From contig CAJQOH010000057.1 of the NCBI GenBank assembly GCA_905479915.1, positions 1 to 64,000 on the forward strand: a stretch of 64,000 nucleotides of DNA, given 5' to 3'. Below the pieces are notes generated by a model, which ran no database searches, was not told where the DNA came from, and saw nothing but the letters and a program-made list of their open reading frames with translations. The DNA is from an uncultured Flavobacteriales bacterium (lineage in GTDB: Bacteria > Bacteroidota > Bacteroidia > Flavobacteriales_E > Vicingaceae). Position 1 is the first letter of the stretch. Each line of letters starts with the position of its first letter. Positions 3,524 to 19,039 of this stretch are shown here, in pieces. A program made the position numbers and the translations under genes.

Positions 3524-5857
3524 ATGGATTATTTAAAGGAGTTAAACGGAGCTCAAAAAGAAGCGGTTGAAACAACAGAAGGCCCTGTAATGGTTATTGC
3601 TGGTGCAGGATCCGGAAAAACAAGAGTGCTAACCTATAGAATTGCTCACCTCATCAATAAAGGTGTAGACCCTTTCAATATTTTATCTTTAACATTTACC
3701 AACAAGGCCGCTCAAGAAATGAAAGAGCGTATTGGCAAAATAATTGGAGGCTCTGAAGCTCGTAACATCTGGATGGGAACATTTCACTCCGTATTCTCCA
3801 GAATCCTAAGATCTGAAGCAGAAAAAATTGGCTACCCTCAAAACTTTACCATTTACGATACTCAAGATGCTAAAAATCTAATCAAAACAATACTAAAAGA
3901 ACAAGGTTTAGATGAAAAAGTTTATAAACCAGGCTTAGTTTACAATAGAATATCTGCAGCAAAAAACAACCTACTAACTGCCGCTGCTTACCTCAAAAAC
4001 ACCACCATTCAATCGGAAGATAGACAGGCGGCAAAACCAAAAATCGGAGAAGTTTACAAGATTTACGAAAGTCGTTGTTTCAAATCTGGAGCAATGGATT
4101 TTGATGACTTACTATTTAAGACCAACATCCTTTTAAGAGATCATCCAGATGTTCTAAACAAATACCAACATCGCTTTAAATACATTTTAGTTGATGAGTA
4201 TCAAGACACCAACTTTTCTCAATACATTATTGTAAAAAAGTTAGCTGCAGCTTTTGAAAATGTTTGTGTTGTTGGAGATGATGCTCAAAGTATCTATGCT
4301 TTTAGGGGTGCCAATATTCAAAACATATTAAATTTTAAAACAGATTACCCTGAAGCAAAAACATTTAAACTAGAAGAAAACTATCGTTCAACTCAAAACA
4401 TTGTAAATGCCGCAAACAGCATTATCAAACACAATTCAGAACAAATAGAAAAAAACGTTTTCACTTCAAATCAGGAAGGCAACAAAATTAAAATCCATAG
4501 AGCTGCCACTGATAATGAAGAAGGAAAAATGGTAGCCAATCTCATTTACGATACTCAATTTTCTGCACAAGCTAGACCAAAAGATTTTGCGATACTTTAC
4601 AGAACCAATGCTCAATCGAGAGCTATGGAAGAAGCTTTAAGAAGAAAAAATATTGCTTACAAAATTCACGGTGGTCAATCTTTTTATCAGCGTAAAGAAA
4701 TTAAAGATTTACTATCTTATTTCAGATTAATCATTAACCCTAATGATGAGGAAGCGTTAAAACGAATTATTAATTATCCTGCAAGAGGAATCGGTAAAAC
4801 CTCAATGGATAAGATTGGAATTGCAGCCAACAATAACGAAACCAGTATTTGGAATGTTATCACACATTTGAACCAATTCAACACAGGAATAAATGCGGGT
4901 ACTCAAACTAAAATTCATGGGTTTCTTGAAATGATAAAAAGTTTTGCCATTCAGATTAAGAGCAAAAATGCTTTTGATTTAGGAAATGAAATAGCTTCAA
5001 CATCTGGTATCCTTAAAGATTTATATAGCGACAAAACGCCTGAAGGAATAAGTCGATATGAAAACATTCAAGAACTTTTAAATGGACTAAAAGAATTTAC
5101 TGAAACAGAAAATGAAGTAGATGGTGATGTTACACCAAGAGGGCTAGTTGAGTTTTTACAAGACGTAGCTCTTCTGACCAATGCTGACAATGAAAAAGAA
5201 GAAGATCGCGACAAGGTTACTTTAATGACGATACACTCTGCTAAAGGATTAGAATTTCCCTATGTTTATTGTGTTGGACTGGAAGAAAACCTTTTCCCAT
5301 CTCAAATGTCATTAACCTCAAGAGCAGACTTAGAAGAGGAAAGACGCTTATTTTATGTGGCGGTTACAAGAGCTGAAAAAGAAATTCACATATCTTACGC
5401 ATCAAGTAGATACAAGTGGGGATCACTTATCTTTTGTGAACCAAGTCGTTTTATTGAAGAAATTTCTGAAGATTATTTAGAGTTTACTTTTGATCAAAAC
5501 ACAGTCGCTCAAAAAAATCATACTTCAAATTTTGACGAACCTTATTCTGCTCAAAACAGTTATGGTGGTGGAAAAACCACTTACAAGAAAAAAAGTACAA
5601 TGCCTCCCAAAAGAAGCGCACCCAAAACAATCACACAAGCACCACCCAAAAACTTAACAAAGGTTAGCAATTCTACTTCTGCAAAGCCAGAAAGCGCAGC
5701 AAGCCTGAACCTTGAAAAAGGCATGATGGTAAATCATCAAAAATTTGGCAATGGTATCATTGAAAATCTTGACAACGGAAAAGCTACCATCAACTTCCAA
5801 AACATTGGTAACAAGCAATTATTATTAAAATTTGCCAAGCTCTCAATAATCAAATAA
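3524..5857 (+). CDS. pcrA: ATP-dependent DNA helicase, UvrD/PcrA type (SF1A)
   Basis: A 777-residue 3'-5' DNA helicase for excision repair and replication restart. Visible motifs in order: Walker A GAGSGKT (27-33), TFTNKAAQEM motif Ia, Walker B VDEYQDT (about 223), GDDAQSIYAFRG motif III (about 250), LEENYRS motif IV, MTIHSAKGLEF motif V (about 568) and VAVTRAEKE motif VI (about 611). After a Lys/Pro/Ser-rich linker (about 660-720) the last 45 residues (GMMVNHQKFGNGII...) form the small Tudor-like domain that ends PcrA/UvrD proteins and contacts RNA polymerase. Length is normal for the family. The start is supported by the -7 box immediately upstream and by the usual N-terminus. It is first in a run with the DUF4290 gene, murA and a thioredoxin-like gene. 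Confidence 0.96.
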   Translation: MDYLKELNGAQKEAVETTEGPVMVIAGAGSGKTRVLTYRIAHLINKGVDPFNILSLTFTNKAAQEMKERIGKIIGGSEARNIWMGTFHSVFSRILRSEAEKIGYPQNFTIYDTQDAKNLIKTILKEQGLDEKVYKPGLVYNRISAAKNNLLTAAAYLKNTTIQSEDRQAAKPKIGEVYKIYESRCFKSGAMDFDDLLFKTNILLRDHPDVLNKYQHRFKYILVDEYQDTNFSQYIIVKKLAAAFENVCVVGDDAQSIYAFRGANIQNILNFKTDYPEAKTFKLEENYRSTQNIVNAANSIIKHNSEQIEKNVFTSNQEGNKIKIHRAATDNEEGKMVANLIYDTQFSAQARPKDFAILYRTNAQSRAMEEALRRKNIAYKIHGGQSFYQRKEIKDLLSYFRLIINPNDEEALKRIINYPARGIGKTSMDKIGIAANNNETSIWNVITHLNQFNTGINAGTQTKIHGFLEMIKSFAIQIKSKNAFDLGNEIASTSGILKDLYSDKTPEGISRYENIQELLNGLKEFTETENEVDGDVTPRGLVEFLQDVALLTNADNEKEEDRDKVTLMTIHSAKGLEFPYVYCVGLEENLFPSQMSLTSRADLEEERRLFYVAVTRAEKEIHISYASSRYKWGSLIFCEPSRFIEEISEDYLEFTFDQNTVAQKNHTSNFDEPYSAQNSYGGGKTTYKKKSTMPPKRSAPKTITQAPPKNLTKVSNSTSAKPESAASLNLEKGMMVNHQKFGNGIIENLDNGKATINFQNIGNKQLLLKFAKLSIIK

Positions 5858-5863
5858 TATATT

Positions 5864-5871
5864 TACTTTTG
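5864..5871 (+). promoter_or_regulatory. -7 box in front of the DUF4290-murA pair
   Basis: TACTTTTG matches TAnnTTTG and would give a leader of roughly 20 bases before the ATG at 5897. It may give the downstream pair its own promoter in addition to read-through from the helicase gene. Confidence 0.4.
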
Positions 5872-5896
5872 AATTTGTTAAAACAGAACAGATTAG

Positions 5897-6562
5897 ATGG
5901 AAAACATAGAAGAAAAAGACTACAATACCAATAGACCCGAAATGGTTATTCCTGAATATGGAAGAAACATTCAAAAAATGGTTGAACATGCCATTTCTCT
6001 ACCAGACAAAGAAGAAAGAAACAAAATTGCTCATGCCATTATTAGTGTTATGGGACAATTAAATCCTCACCTGAGAGATATCGCTGATTTTAAACACAAA
6101 TTATGGGATCATTTATTTATTATCTCTGATTTTAAATTGGATGTAGACTCTCCTTACCCATTACCAGATAAAGCTGTACTTTTTGAGAGACCCGAAATAA
6201 TGGCTTATCCAAAAACAGAAAATAGATTTAAACATTATGGAAAATCTGTTAAAACATTAATAGATACCGCTATAGCAATTGAAGACAAGGATGAGCAAAA
6301 AGCATTAACTGGAGTTATCCTTAATTTGATGAAAAAAACGTACTTAACATTTAATCAAAGTTCTGTAGAAGATAATCAAATCATTACTGATTTAAAGACT
6401 ATCTCTAAAAACCAACTTGATGCTCCAGAAGGATTTCAAATGATTTCTACGAATGAAGTCTTAGCAATGACTAAGAAAAAGAATTCTCATTCTAACAAAA
6501 ATCACAAGAACCAAAAGAACAAAAACCACAAACAAAACAACTACAAAAAAAGAAGATATTAA
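5897..6562 (+). CDS. DUF4290 family protein
   Basis: A 221-residue cytoplasmic protein of the Bacteroidota-specific DUF4290 family; no biochemical function is known to me. It shows the conserved N-terminus (YNTNRPEMVIPEYGRN), two helical repeats with related segments (PDKEERNKIAHAIISVM near 38 and EDKDEQKALTGVILNLM near 133), and a C-terminal tail of about 30 residues made almost only of Lys, Asn and His. The basic tail suggests nucleic-acid or polyphosphate contact, which is inference. Its stop codon overlaps the murA start (TAATG), so the two are translationally coupled, as is common for this pair in the phylum. Confidence 0.9.
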   Translation: MENIEEKDYNTNRPEMVIPEYGRNIQKMVEHAISLPDKEERNKIAHAIISVMGQLNPHLRDIADFKHKLWDHLFIISDFKLDVDSPYPLPDKAVLFERPEIMAYPKTENRFKHYGKSVKTLIDTAIAIEDKDEQKALTGVILNLMKKTYLTFNQSSVEDNQIITDLKTISKNQLDAPEGFQMISTNEVLAMTKKKNSHSNKNHKNQKNKNHKQNNYKKRRY

Positions 6563-7866
6563 TGGGTACATTCAAAATAAAAGGTGGAAATAAGTTAAAA
6601 GGAGAACTAACTCCTCAAGGAGCAAAAAACGAAGCATTACAAGTTGTTTGTGCTGTTTTACTAACTTCAGAAAAAGTAACACTTACCAATCTACCATTTA
6701 TTAGAGATGTAAACTTCTTGATTGATTTACTAGAGGCTTTAGGTGTTCAAGTAGAAAGAGAAGGAAATGGAACTGTTCATTTTCAGTCCAACAACATTAA
6801 TATCGATTATTTAAACTCTGAAGATTTTAAAGTTAGAGCAGAGTCTTTAAGAGGATCTATAATGATTGTAGGTCCTTTATTGGCAAGATTCAAAAAAGCT
6901 TACATGCCAAAACCTGGTGGGGATAAAATTGGTGCAAGACCACTAGATACTCACTTTTTAGGTTTTACAAAGTTAGGAGCAACATACACTTATGATCCTA
7001 GTACGTGCTTCTATTCTTTAGAAGCAAACAACTTAGCCGGCCAATACATCTTATTAGACGAACCATCTGTTACTGGAACAGCAAATATTTTAATGACAGC
7101 GGTTTTAGCTAAAGGAAAAACAACCATTTACAATGCTGCTTGTGAACCATATTTACAACAGCTATGCTCTATGCTTAATAGTATGGGAGCAAAAATTTCT
7201 GGAGTTGGATCAAATTTACTAACCATTGAAGGGGTTGATGAATTGGGAGGTTGTGAACACAGATTATTGCCAGATTTTATTGAAGTAGGTTCTTTTATCG
7301 GTATGGCTGCAATGACAGGATCTGAAATTACAATTAAAAATTGTAGAGTAGATATGCTGGGAAGAATACCTGATACTTTTAGAAGACTAGGCATTCAACT
7401 AGAAATTAAAGGTGATGACATTTATATCCCTGAACAAAACAACTACGAAATTAAAAGAATGATTGATGGTTCTATACCAACAATATATGACGCTGTATGG
7501 CCAGGATTCACTCCTGATTTATTAAGTATTGTTTTGGTAACAGCTATCCAAGCAAAAGGAACTGTTTTAATTCACCAAAAAATGTTTGATAGCCGTTTAT
7601 TCTTTATAGATAGATTAAAAGATATGGGAGCTCAAATTATTTTATGTGATCCGCACAGAGCTACTGTAATTGGAATGAACAAAGAAACCAATCTAAGAGG
7701 AACAACAATGTCTTCTCCAGATATTAGAGCTGGAGTATCTTTATTAATAGCAGCGCTTTCTGCCGAAGGAGAAAGTACCATTAATAACATTGAACAAATT
7801 GATAGAGGTTATCAATACATCGATGAAAGGCTAAATGCAATTGGAGCAGATATTACGCGTTTATAA
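6562..7866 (+). CDS. murA: UDP-N-acetylglucosamine 1-carboxyvinyltransferase MurA
   Basis: MurA (434 residues, full length) transfers enolpyruvate from PEP to UDP-GlcNAc, the first committed step of peptidoglycan synthesis, in the cytoplasm. The EPSP-synthase-type fold is evident: GGNKLKGELTPQGAKNEAL at the N-terminus with the conserved Lys-Asn, RAESLRGSIMIVGPLLAR around 92, and RGTTMSSPDIRAGVSLLIAA near 380. At the position of the catalytic Cys (Cys115 in E. coli) the motif reads PGGDKIGARP, so residue 121 (codon at 6922-6924) is Asp. Cys-to-Asp enzymes are active but not alkylated by fosfomycin. It is coupled to the DUF4290 gene upstream by a TAATG overlap. Confidence 0.96.
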   Translation: MGTFKIKGGNKLKGELTPQGAKNEALQVVCAVLLTSEKVTLTNLPFIRDVNFLIDLLEALGVQVEREGNGTVHFQSNNINIDYLNSEDFKVRAESLRGSIMIVGPLLARFKKAYMPKPGGDKIGARPLDTHFLGFTKLGATYTYDPSTCFYSLEANNLAGQYILLDEPSVTGTANILMTAVLAKGKTTIYNAACEPYLQQLCSMLNSMGAKISGVGSNLLTIEGVDELGGCEHRLLPDFIEVGSFIGMAAMTGSEITIKNCRVDMLGRIPDTFRRLGIQLEIKGDDIYIPEQNNYEIKRMIDGSIPTIYDAVWPGFTPDLLSIVLVTAIQAKGTVLIHQKMFDSRLFFIDRLKDMGAQIILCDPHRATVIGMNKETNLRGTTMSSPDIRAGVSLLIAALSAEGESTINNIEQIDRGYQYIDERLNAIGADITRL

Positions 7867-16668: not shown

Positions 16669-18456
16669 GTGATTTACAAAAGCACCATAGACTGCGTAAA
16701 TGATCTTGAAAAACATGGTCATTTAATTCGTATTAAAGAAGAAGTTGATCCCAACTTGGAAATGGCTGCCATTCAACTACGTGTATTTGAGCAAGGAGGT
16801 AAAGCTGTATTGTTTGAAAACATCAAAGGTTGTGGTTTTATGGCTGTTTCAAATTTATTTGGAACACTAGAGCGAAGTGAGTTTATCTTTAGAAATACGT
16901 TCAAAAAAGTTCAGCAGCTTATTGAATTAAAAAACGATCCTTTAAAAGCTATAAAATCTCCTATCAAAAATTTTTCTTTAGGATTGATGGCTAAGAATGC
17001 TTTACCAAAAAAAGTTTCTAGCTTACCTTCTTACATGAAGGAAACCACAATTGATAAATTACCATTGATTAAATGTTGGCCAGATGATGGTGGGGCTTTT
17101 ATTACGCTTCCACAGGTATATTCTGAAGACCCAACAAAAGAAGGAGTAATGAACTCTAACTTAGGAATGTATCGTATTCAATTGAATGGAAACGATTACA
17201 AACTAAATGAAGAAATTGGATTGCATTATCAAATTCATAGAGGAATTGGAGTGCATCAAACCAAAGCCAATAAACTAGGTAAACCTTTAAAGGTTTCAAT
17301 TTTTGTTGGCGGTCCACCAGCGCATACTTTAGCTGCGGTAATGCCTTTACCTGAAGGACTATCAGAATTAACGTTTGCTGGAAGCTTAGGTGCCAATCGC
17401 TTTAAACATACCTATGTAGATGGTTATTGCATTGCTACAGAAGCTGACTTTGTGATAACTGGAGAAATTCATCCTAACGATACAAAACCCGAAGGTCCTT
17501 TTGGAGACCATTTAGGTTATTATAGTTTAACGCATGAGTTTCCAGTAATGAAAGTACATAAGGTATATCATAGAGAAAATGCCATCTGGCCATTCACAGT
17601 TGTTGGCAGACCTCCACAAGAAGACACGCAATTTGGCGCTTTAATTCACAAATTGGCAGGTTCAGCAATTCAAGCAGAAATACCAGGTTTACATGAAATA
17701 AATGCCGTTGATGCTGCAGGCGTTCACCCTTTATTATTAGCTGTTGGAAGTGAGCGCTATACACCTTACCAAAAAACAAAACAACCACAAGAGCTCTTAA
17801 CCATTGCCAATCATATTTTAGGTAAAGGACAGTTGAGTTTAGCCAAGTATTTATTTATATCCAATAAAGAAGATAACTCCTCTATTAGTTGTGATAATAT
17901 TGAAGAATACTTTACCCATATTTTAGAAAGAGTGGATTGGACTAGAGACATTCATTTTCAAACTAAAACCACAATAGACACATTAGATTATAGCGGAACC
18001 GACATTAATCAAGGCTCTAAAGTAGTTATTGCTGCTGTTGGAGAAAAGAAAAGAAGTTTGGAGTCAGAAGTGAGAAGTGAGAAGTTTAAAATGGTAATGC
18101 CAGGTGTTGTTGCAATGAATTTTTCAGAATTTACATCTTATGAAAATGCTGAGCAAGAATTAAAATCTCTAAACTCTTCACTCATTACTGAAGACCTTAA
18201 CGGTATAATGCTAATTGTCCTTACCGATAATGCTCCATTTGTTTCTGAAACACTCAATAACTTTTTATGGACAACTTTTACAAGAAGTAATCCAGCAAAC
18301 GATATTTATGGAGTTGATAGTTTTATCAAACACAAACATTGGGGATGCAATGGACCACTAATTATTGATGCGCGTAAAAAGCCACATCATGCTCCAGACT
18401 TAATTAAGGATGAAAATATTGAGAAACGAGTGGATGAAATTTTAAAAAAGATTTAA
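16669..18456 (+). CDS. ubiD: UbiD-family decarboxylase
   Basis: A 595-residue prenylated-FMN-dependent decarboxylase of the UbiD family, in this phylum most likely acting in menaquinone synthesis. It starts with GTG at 16669; the reading begins MIYKSTIDCVNDLEKHGHLIRI, the normal family N-terminus. Diagnostic segments are QIHRGIGVHQTKA (about 188), VSIFVGGPPAHTLAAVMPLPEG (about 209), EGPFGDHLGYYS with the catalytic Glu/Asp (about 274), FTVVGRPPQEDTQFG and the C-terminal KHWGCNGPLIIDARKKPH. Between about 462 and 474 a stretch reading RSLESEVRSEKFK is encoded by an AAGT-type microrepeat and is not family-like. The stop codon overlaps the end of a minus-strand small gene. Confidence 0.9.
   Translation: MIYKSTIDCVNDLEKHGHLIRIKEEVDPNLEMAAIQLRVFEQGGKAVLFENIKGCGFMAVSNLFGTLERSEFIFRNTFKKVQQLIELKNDPLKAIKSPIKNFSLGLMAKNALPKKVSSLPSYMKETTIDKLPLIKCWPDDGGAFITLPQVYSEDPTKEGVMNSNLGMYRIQLNGNDYKLNEEIGLHYQIHRGIGVHQTKANKLGKPLKVSIFVGGPPAHTLAAVMPLPEGLSELTFAGSLGANRFKHTYVDGYCIATEADFVITGEIHPNDTKPEGPFGDHLGYYSLTHEFPVMKVHKVYHRENAIWPFTVVGRPPQEDTQFGALIHKLAGSAIQAEIPGLHEINAVDAAGVHPLLLAVGSERYTPYQKTKQPQELLTIANHILGKGQLSLAKYLFISNKEDNSSISCDNIEEYFTHILERVDWTRDIHFQTKTTIDTLDYSGTDINQGSKVVIAAVGEKKRSLESEVRSEKFKMVMPGVVAMNFSEFTSYENAEQELKSLNSSLITEDLNGIMLIVLTDNAPFVSETLNNFLWTTFTRSNPANDIYGVDSFIKHKHWGCNGPLIIDARKKPHHAPDLIKDENIEKRVDEILKKI
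18058..18092 (+). repeat. AAGT-type microrepeat inside ubiD
   Basis: Within ubiD the DNA reads GAGTCAGAAGTGAGAAGTGAGAAGT in short pieces, a GAAGTGA direct repeat. Similar AAGT-type runs fill the grpE-dnaJ gap (15225-15285). The reading frame is kept. Confidence 0.5.
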
Positions 18457-18605
18457 CCCCAATTTATTGGGCAAGACTTACAACAGCTTTTCCCTTTTTT
18501 CTTGAATTTTTCACAGCATTTTTCTTTTTTCTTCTTTTTCTTTTTGACTTCTATGTCAATAGAGTTTTGAAGTGTTGGGAAATGGATATGTGAAATTTGC
18601 TTCAT
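18453..18605 (-). CDS. 50-residue Lys/Cys-rich small protein
   Basis: ATG at 18605-18603 and TAA at 18455-18453 give 50 residues. The N-terminus is MKQISHIHFPTLQNSIDIEV; then come seven consecutive Lys (21-27), two adjacent-cysteine pairs (Cys30-Cys31 and Cys41-Cys42) in a Lys-rich context, and Cys45 in CKSCPINWG. There is no signal peptide. Five Cys and two His in 50 residues suggest metal binding, which is inference. A well-formed promoter lies directly upstream with a perfect palindrome in its spacer. The stop codon overlaps the ubiD stop from the opposite strand. It lies downstream of the truncated haemoglobin gene on the same strand. I do not recognise a named family. Confidence 0.75.
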   Translation of the reverse strand: MKQISHIHFPTLQNSIDIEVKKKKKKKEKCCEKFKKKGKSCCKSCPINWG

Positions 18606-18612
18606 TTGACAG

Positions 18613-18643
18613 CAAATATACTATTTAGAATCATTCTAAACAA
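18613..18643 (-). promoter_or_regulatory. Promoter with palindromic operator for the Lys/Cys-rich gene
   Basis: On the minus strand a TTG (-33) at 18643-18641 and TATATTTG (-7) at 18620-18613 are 20 bases apart, the classical Bacteroidota arrangement. The spacer contains a perfect 7+7 inverted repeat, TTTAGAA-TCA-TTCTAAA on the plus strand (18624-18640). A repressor bound there would block polymerase. AT-rich palindromes of this size are typical of Fur/DtxR-type metalloregulators; the regulator is not identified here. The -7 box ends 7 bases before the ATG, so the leader is very short. Confidence 0.65.
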
Positions 18644-18664
18644 TACCACAAATGAGGTATTTAA

Positions 18665-19039
18665 TCATGAATAATGTCCAAGTTTTGCTTGGATCGTCAT
18701 TCCTATTTGGCTAGCTCTAAGCTTCATCTTTTCCGAAATTTCTCCAGTAAAATTAGCATCTACAGAGGCTATCAACAAAAACTGCCAACGTTTAAAATGT
18801 TCTGGAGTTAACTTTTCTAATACATCAAGATTTTTATGAATTTGAACAACATTGTTTTTATATCCTCCTGTATGAAACAATGCATTATTCCAAAAATCAG
18901 CTAATAAGGGTAAATGATGTTTAAGGTCTAATTTTGCAACGTCAGTAAATATATACCCTATCTCTTCATCTTTAAGCATTGTAGAATAAAACTCCTGCAT
19001 CAAAAATAAAAGATCATCTCTATTTTTAATATCTGTCAT
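18665..19039 (-). CDS. Group III truncated haemoglobin
   Basis: A 124-residue haem protein of the truncated globin family (group III). Supporting segments are FYSTMLKDEEIGYIF with Tyr18 at the B10 position, LPLLADFWNNALFHTGGY (about 43-60), and IHKNLDVLEKLTPEHFKRW, where His68 is the likely proximal haem ligand and HFKRW is the typical G-helix start. Such proteins bind O2 or NO and are linked to nitrosative stress or microaerobic life; the exact role is not shown. Its ATG overlaps the stop of the DUF1801 gene (TAATG), so they form one unit. Confidence 0.88.
   Translation of the reverse strand: MTDIKNRDDLLFLMQEFYSTMLKDEEIGYIFTDVAKLDLKHHLPLLADFWNNALFHTGGYKNNVVQIHKNLDVLEKLTPEHFKRWQFLLIASVDANFTGEISEKMKLRASQIGMTIQAKLGHYS

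Follow-up and report, generated by a model that had tools for sequence, protein, structure and literature searches.

Bfd is a small, Fur-controlled protein with four cysteines, and the operators of NarL and NarP have a 7-2-7 heptamer layout. In E. coli FhuF, the [2Fe-2S] site consists of Cys244, 245, 256 and 259, whose C-C-x10-C-x2-C spacing has been called unprecedented (PMC8068687). In Riemerella anatipestifer, a member of the same order as the organism considered here, ATTTAGAATTATTCTAAAT has been predicted as the Fur box, and in EMSA the purified Fur protein shifted a selection of target promoters that carry it (PMC5609570), and the TAnnTTTG promoter box of F. psychrophilum lies at -12 to -5 (PMC9723704). 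We compared these systems with a locus in a window of 64,000 nucleotides from an uncultured Flavobacteriales bacterium, by which we mean the whole stretch of DNA that was analysed (Table 1). The locus encodes a genuine small protein that very probably belongs to the iron-starvation response. The reading that we favour, tentatively and at a little short of an even chance, is that it forms an iron-starvation-induced mini [2Fe-2S]-type carrier or reductase module for iron release, controlled by Fur and probably assisted by a NarL-type regulator.

Table 1. Features of the locus in the window, and the exact Fur-type sites of the genome
Feature	Position	Strand	Basis or remark
50-aa Lys/Cys-rich protein gene	18453..18605	-	ORF listing, alignment of 16 sequences, homologues
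Predicted 3-nt 5' leader	18606..18608	-	+1 predicted from -12..-5 position of TAnnTTTG box
-7 box TATATTTG (TAnnTTTG)	18613..18620	-	sequence; conserved among homologue loci
Fur box TTTAGAATCATTCTAAA, perfect palindrome between -33 and -7 elements	18624..18640	.	recurrence, Riemerella match, conservation 0.94
-33 element TTG	18641..18643	-	sequence; conserved among homologue loci
ATACC-N8-GGTAT palindrome, proposed activator site (7-2-7 layout TACCTCA-TT-TGTGGTA)	18643..18660	.	conservation, recurrence
Group III truncated haemoglobin (context)	18665..19039	-	match to PDB 2ig3, E = 6.5e-7
Presumed UbiD-like decarboxylase gene, convergent (context)	16669..18456	+	overlaps 50-aa gene end by 4 bp
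Fur-type site 1			before 50-aa gene
Fur-type site 2			before A-type Fe-S scaffold gene sufA, then sufB
Fur-type site 3			before NarL/LuxR-type response regulator gene
Fur-type site 4			before 402-aa porin-like protein gene, then FMN_bind protein gene
Fur-type site 5	L025 (G000:C23:88844)		before multihaem cytochrome c gene

The original prediction of a 50-residue Lys/Cys-rich protein was borne out by the reading frame, whose product MKQISHIHFPTLQNSIDIEVKKKKKKKEKCCEKFKKKGKSCCKSCPINWG has a Lys7 run and the CC/CC/C cysteines C30, C31, C41, C42 and C45, arranged as C30-C31-x10-C42-x2-C45-P46. An alignment of 16 members found M1, K24, K25, C30, C31, K37, C42, C45 and P46 to be invariant and C41 not to be general; the Lys run was kept by all 16 with a varying length, and some homologues had x9 in place of x10 between the cysteine pairs. 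Conserved homologues, for which a search had been proposed, were found. A protein search gave a match in 21 of 60 relatives (18 at E <= 1.1e-7), and with a family profile built from the 16 members the protein turned up in 16 of the 36 family genomes that were complete enough, representing 4 of 14 genera, but in only three of 296 genomes across the phylum, the window's own among them. The gene therefore belongs chiefly to one Flavobacteriales family. Over the 27 codons from the start of the Lys stretch to the C-terminal end, pN was about 0.10 and synonymous change was saturated; conservation within the family together with a pN far below pS shows that the gene is real. Sub-threshold Pfam matches to RIG-I_C-RD and PYRIN were dismissed as chance, a PDB profile search found no relative, and an Rfam scan of the whole window gave no match. 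The AlphaFold model, a single helix (pLDDT 68, pTM 0.39), was of too low a confidence for fold comparison and is uninformative.

Distant look-alikes occurred in other Bacteroidota (L042 and L043) and on one Myxococcota contig, where a similar 41-aa protein (MKTRCCKRFKRKGKPCKKCP..., L040:4001-4132) carries CC-x9-C-x2-CP. Its sequence suggests that basic mini-proteins with that motif form a broader class. Plasmid searches for the 50-aa protein and for the Myxococcota look-alike found none. One homologue, in genome G012, lies in two pieces, with its promoter and N-terminal part at one contig end (L072, G012:C7) and its Lys/Cys part near another (L011, G012:C3); an inserted element may have split this gene.

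The gene has its own promoter, separate from the truncated haemoglobin gene, for which a PDB sequence search was the only source of a match, with none at E <= 1 in Pfam or NCBIfam. The globin had been noted as a neighbour, and the adjacency is real; it holds only at genus level and is absent in other genera with the gene and promoter, so that a globin partnership of the 50-aa protein was rejected as general. The convergent gene, which by our own reading of its sequence we take to encode a UbiD-like decarboxylase, is a conserved neighbour in several homologue loci.

On the minus strand the promoter reads TTG(18643-18641)-N20-TATATTTG(18620-18613), and a palindrome occupies 17 of the 20 spacer bases, in agreement with the original description of a TTG-N20-box promoter with TTTAGAA-TCA-TTCTAAA in its spacer. 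A feature that this description missed is the predicted 3-nt leader, from which the mRNA is predicted to be near-leaderless. The predicted leader measured 0-5 nt in 15 of 16 homologue loci, which indicates that the start codon is set by the promoter and gives further support to the annotation of the reading frame. A chance ORF beneath a real Fur promoter of something else, a reading that draws on the length of only 50 codons, is accordingly hard to credit, given this spacing from promoter to start codon and the strong purifying selection on the protein at saturated synonymous sites.

On sequence grounds, the spacer palindrome is the flavobacterial Fur box: it shares with the Riemerella site the same 17-bp palindrome and its free central base. 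The exact sequence TTTAGAANNNTTCTAAA occurred once in the window and at three places in the genome, where an order-3 Markov model predicts 0.36. The degenerate Fur box TTTAGANTNANTCTAAA had five exact sites in the 3.57-Mb genome against 0.16 expected under the same type of model, and the same five sites satisfied the tighter form TTTAGAWTNAWTCTAAA, for which about 0.09 were expected. All five lie directly upstream of genes (Table 1). With one mismatch or fewer allowed, the genome had seven sites, not above the 11 of a reversed-pattern control, and therefore only the exact class carries weight. None of the five exact sites of the genome belongs to a siderophore operon. The promoter was conserved together with the 50-aa gene among homologue loci. 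An earlier claim of metal control through a repressor-type palindrome thus found its counterpart in the published flavobacterial Fur box (PMC5609570), and the proposed check for recurrence at regulated promoters located the palindrome at iron and Fe-S genes. Taken from sequence, Fur control of the 50-aa gene is near certain, with Fur presumably binding at 18624-18640, and iron starvation very probably induces the gene. At site 5, the 432-aa product has both a class I cytochrome c domain and domains resembling multihaem c7/c3.

Three Fur-family genes were found in the genome, one beside purA on contig C12, one PerR-like and followed by what we read as peroxiredoxin and SOD genes, and one Zur-like and adjoining presumed FolE2- and CobW-like genes. 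The first of these shares its place beside purA with the single Fur of F. psychrophilum (PMC9331221). The palindrome also resembles the alphaproteobacterial Irr motif, but an Irr/ICE box identity was set aside in favour of the Riemerella Fur box, which is the better match and is backed by EMSA.

A second palindrome, ATACC-TCATTTGT-GGTAT, abuts the Fur box and overlaps the -33 TTG, and had also escaped the original prediction. To measure conservation of the composite promoter, we averaged the frequency of the commonest base across 16 homologue loci with a Fur-type site; the value rose from 0.45 in the preceding 38 bp to 0.81 over ATACC...GGTATTG and 0.94 over the Fur box. The ATACC palindrome was present in 15 of these 16 loci, the exception being L008; elsewhere, one locus (L009) kept ATACC and had lost the Fur box, and two (L013 and L014) had neither. 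The composite of ATACC site and Fur box also stands, in other genomes, before TonB-dependent-receptor-like genes (L074, L080, L081) and a methyltransferase gene (L065). An exact match to the ATACC pattern, fixed T included, occurred at three sites of the window's genome: before the 50-aa gene, before the porin/FMN operon and inside an ORF (C35:58585). The last of these was taken as chance, and the suf genes are preceded by a copy with one mismatch. The porin/FMN operon (L057, G000:C30) comprises ORFs 5037-6245, 6316-6840 and 6841-7332 for a porin-like, an FMN_bind and a 163-aa protein, with both palindromes upstream, and its sequence suggests an extracytosolic flavin redox operon induced by iron starvation.

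An Rrf2-family regulator for the ATACC palindrome was rejected, since no Rrf2 gene was found in the genome. The candidate that we propose is the NarL/LuxR-type response regulator of site 3, encoded outside the window at G000:C30:10276-10902 (L088). Its gene was present in 50 of 60 relatives, with the Fur box close to the start codon in nearly all of them; C105 and C125 were conserved in 30 of 30 sequences and C143 in 29 of 30, and the acidic pocket at the start of the receiver is altered. In all 13 genus genomes having this gene, an ATACC site lay beside it, between the gene end and about 1.2 kb downstream, and the linkage recurred in other families (G042/L114 and G056/L112), there before TonB-receptor-like genes. 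On the basis of this linkage, we propose that the regulator binds ATACC-N8-GGTAT. Its sequence further makes it a candidate iron- or Fe-S-responsive factor. A literature search that covered a minority of the subscription papers found no description of this response regulator.

The nature of the protein itself was approached through its cysteines, whose C-C-x10-C-x2-C spacing is identical to that of the C-terminal cluster motif of FhuF. TIGR03950 (siderophore ferric iron reductase) was matched weakly by 16 of 16 members (best E 4.2e-5), with the match of the window protein falling in roughly the final 30 positions of the model; TIGR03951 (FhuF) was matched by nine of 16, and PF11575 was touched by only two of 16. 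At 17.8 bits against a family cut-off of 137.9, the window protein fell below the cut-offs of TIGR03950, TIGR03951 and PF11575. In an hhalign comparison with E. coli FhuF, CCEKFKKKGKSCCKSC was aligned to CCQRYRLPDVQQCGDC with four cysteines on four cysteines (p = 0.0067). Shuffled sequences with the cysteines and P46 fixed (5 of 5) and two full shuffles gave no FhuF-model match, whereas 3 of 10 shuffles that kept the cysteines and the local Lys-rich composition reached 12.9-14.1 bits; the unshuffled scores, 17.8 bits for the window protein and 20.9 bits for a second member, were 4-7 bits above these composition-kept shuffles. Because the latter score so close, homology to FhuF is unproven and only the motif is claimed from the sequence. 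Nor was the protein filed as FhuF, since it missed the cut-off, at only 50 aa has no room for the N-terminal helical siderophore-binding domain, and no FhuF_C was found in the 60 relatives.

Three other roles have to be weighed against a carrier or reductase of this type, and we ranked a Bfd-like role on ferritin above a metal buffer and the latter above a basic sensing peptide. In the first, which we regard as unlikely, the product would be a small [2Fe-2S] protein under Fur control, its cluster site not related to that of Bfd, and would feed electrons to ferritin or bacterioferritin to mobilise stored iron; its size class, Fur control and cysteine number are those of Bfd, no siderophore-reductase domain is attached to it, and Suf and flavin functions have the same Fur box, but there is no Pfam BFD match (PF04324) and the cysteine spacing differs. 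The second, a metallothionein- or zinc-knuckle-like buffer or chaperone binding Zn, Fe or Cu through its cysteines, is less probable again. Four to five cysteines and many lysines within 50 aa would suit it, as would the further cysteines of look-alike L043, but only four cysteines are invariant, no metallothionein or zinc-knuckle model of Pfam or NCBIfam was matched, and the site is Fur-type and not Zur- or copper-type. Buffering of Zn or Cu is disfavoured by this Fur-type control and by the iron and Fe-S company of the regulon. The metal buffer that had been put forward originally therefore now appears less likely than a [2Fe-2S]-type site, which has in its favour the FhuF spacing and a regulon of iron acquisition and Fe-S assembly. 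The third is that of a basic regulator, the Lys arm of which would bind RNA, DNA or an acidic protein with the cysteines sensing iron or redox state. This we consider distinctly improbable: the Lys run is kept in all members and the promoter is one of iron starvation, but the length of the run varies and no DNA-binding fold was recognised by Pfam, NCBIfam or the AlphaFold model.

For the favoured reading of a mini [2Fe-2S]-type carrier or reductase, the gene, its conservation, the Fur-type box with its recurrence, the composite promoter and the cysteine spacing were computed here, and we infer Fur binding, the identity of the activator, the cluster and the redox role. With plentiful iron, Fe-Fur would occupy TTTAGAATCATTCTAAA, which separates the -33 element from the -7 box, and would block RNA polymerase; when iron is scarce, Fur would leave and the promoter would fire. 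The NarL-type response regulator, itself under Fur control, would be derepressed in parallel and would probably boost the promoters through the abutting ATACC-N8-GGTAT, in a coherent feed-forward loop. The protein, with four invariant cysteines spaced C-C-x(9-10)-C-x2-C-P behind a flexible poly-Lys arm, would most likely hold one [2Fe-2S] or mononuclear Fe centre and work in the cytosol as a small electron carrier or reductase module, serving iron release from ferric siderophore or stored iron alongside the uptake, flavin and Suf functions that are regulated with it. A bolder version, possible but rather unlikely in our estimation, is that a free-standing mini FhuF-type [2Fe-2S] module is the soluble iron-release reductase of Flavobacteriales without FhuF, driven by an undescribed two-layer switch in which Fur is joined by a Fur-controlled NarL-type regulator, with three cysteines sensing iron or Fe-S, that binds ATACC-N8-GGTAT beside the Fur box.

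Genes of about 50 codons are readily missed by annotation, and small parts of the iron-starvation response go unnoticed in this way. If the cluster is real, the protein would contain a very small FhuF-type centre and could be a candidate for the reductase step that is missing where bacteria have no FhuF. With the conserved double operator, the iron regulon of this Flavobacteriales group has a signature that is precise and can be searched for, and the operator points to a second factor responsive to iron besides Fur, the response regulator with its cysteines. No description of a free-standing FhuF-type motif protein with a double operator and a cysteine-bearing regulator was found in the literature, in a search that covered a minority of the subscription papers.

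Among known systems, the protein resembles Bfd in being small, Fur-controlled, provided with four cysteines and expected in iron release, and differs from it in sequence and cysteine spacing, with no PF04324 match. Like the 7-2-7 operators of NarL and NarP, the ATACC site allows a reading as a pair of inverted heptamers 2 bp apart, and a NarL-type regulator gene adjoins it, but its sequence is not the NarL heptamer and recognition by the regulator is proposed from linkage only. The Fur box itself is already known, and the locus shares with the Riemerella anatipestifer Fur regulon this box, the bacterial order and the location of the box near -7/-33 type promoters; the paired ATACC-N8-GGTAT element and the response regulator with three cysteines are not described there (PMC5609570). 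With FhuF (TIGR03951, TIGR03950, PF11575) it has in common the C-C-x10-C-x2-C spacing, a motif start of CC-[EQ]-[KR]-[FY]-[KR], the C-terminal position of the motif and the Fur control seen for E. coli fhuF, and it departs from FhuF in its length of 50 aa against about 260, with no 4-helix substrate-binding domain, in its poly-Lys arm, in the x9 of some members and in scores below every model cut-off.
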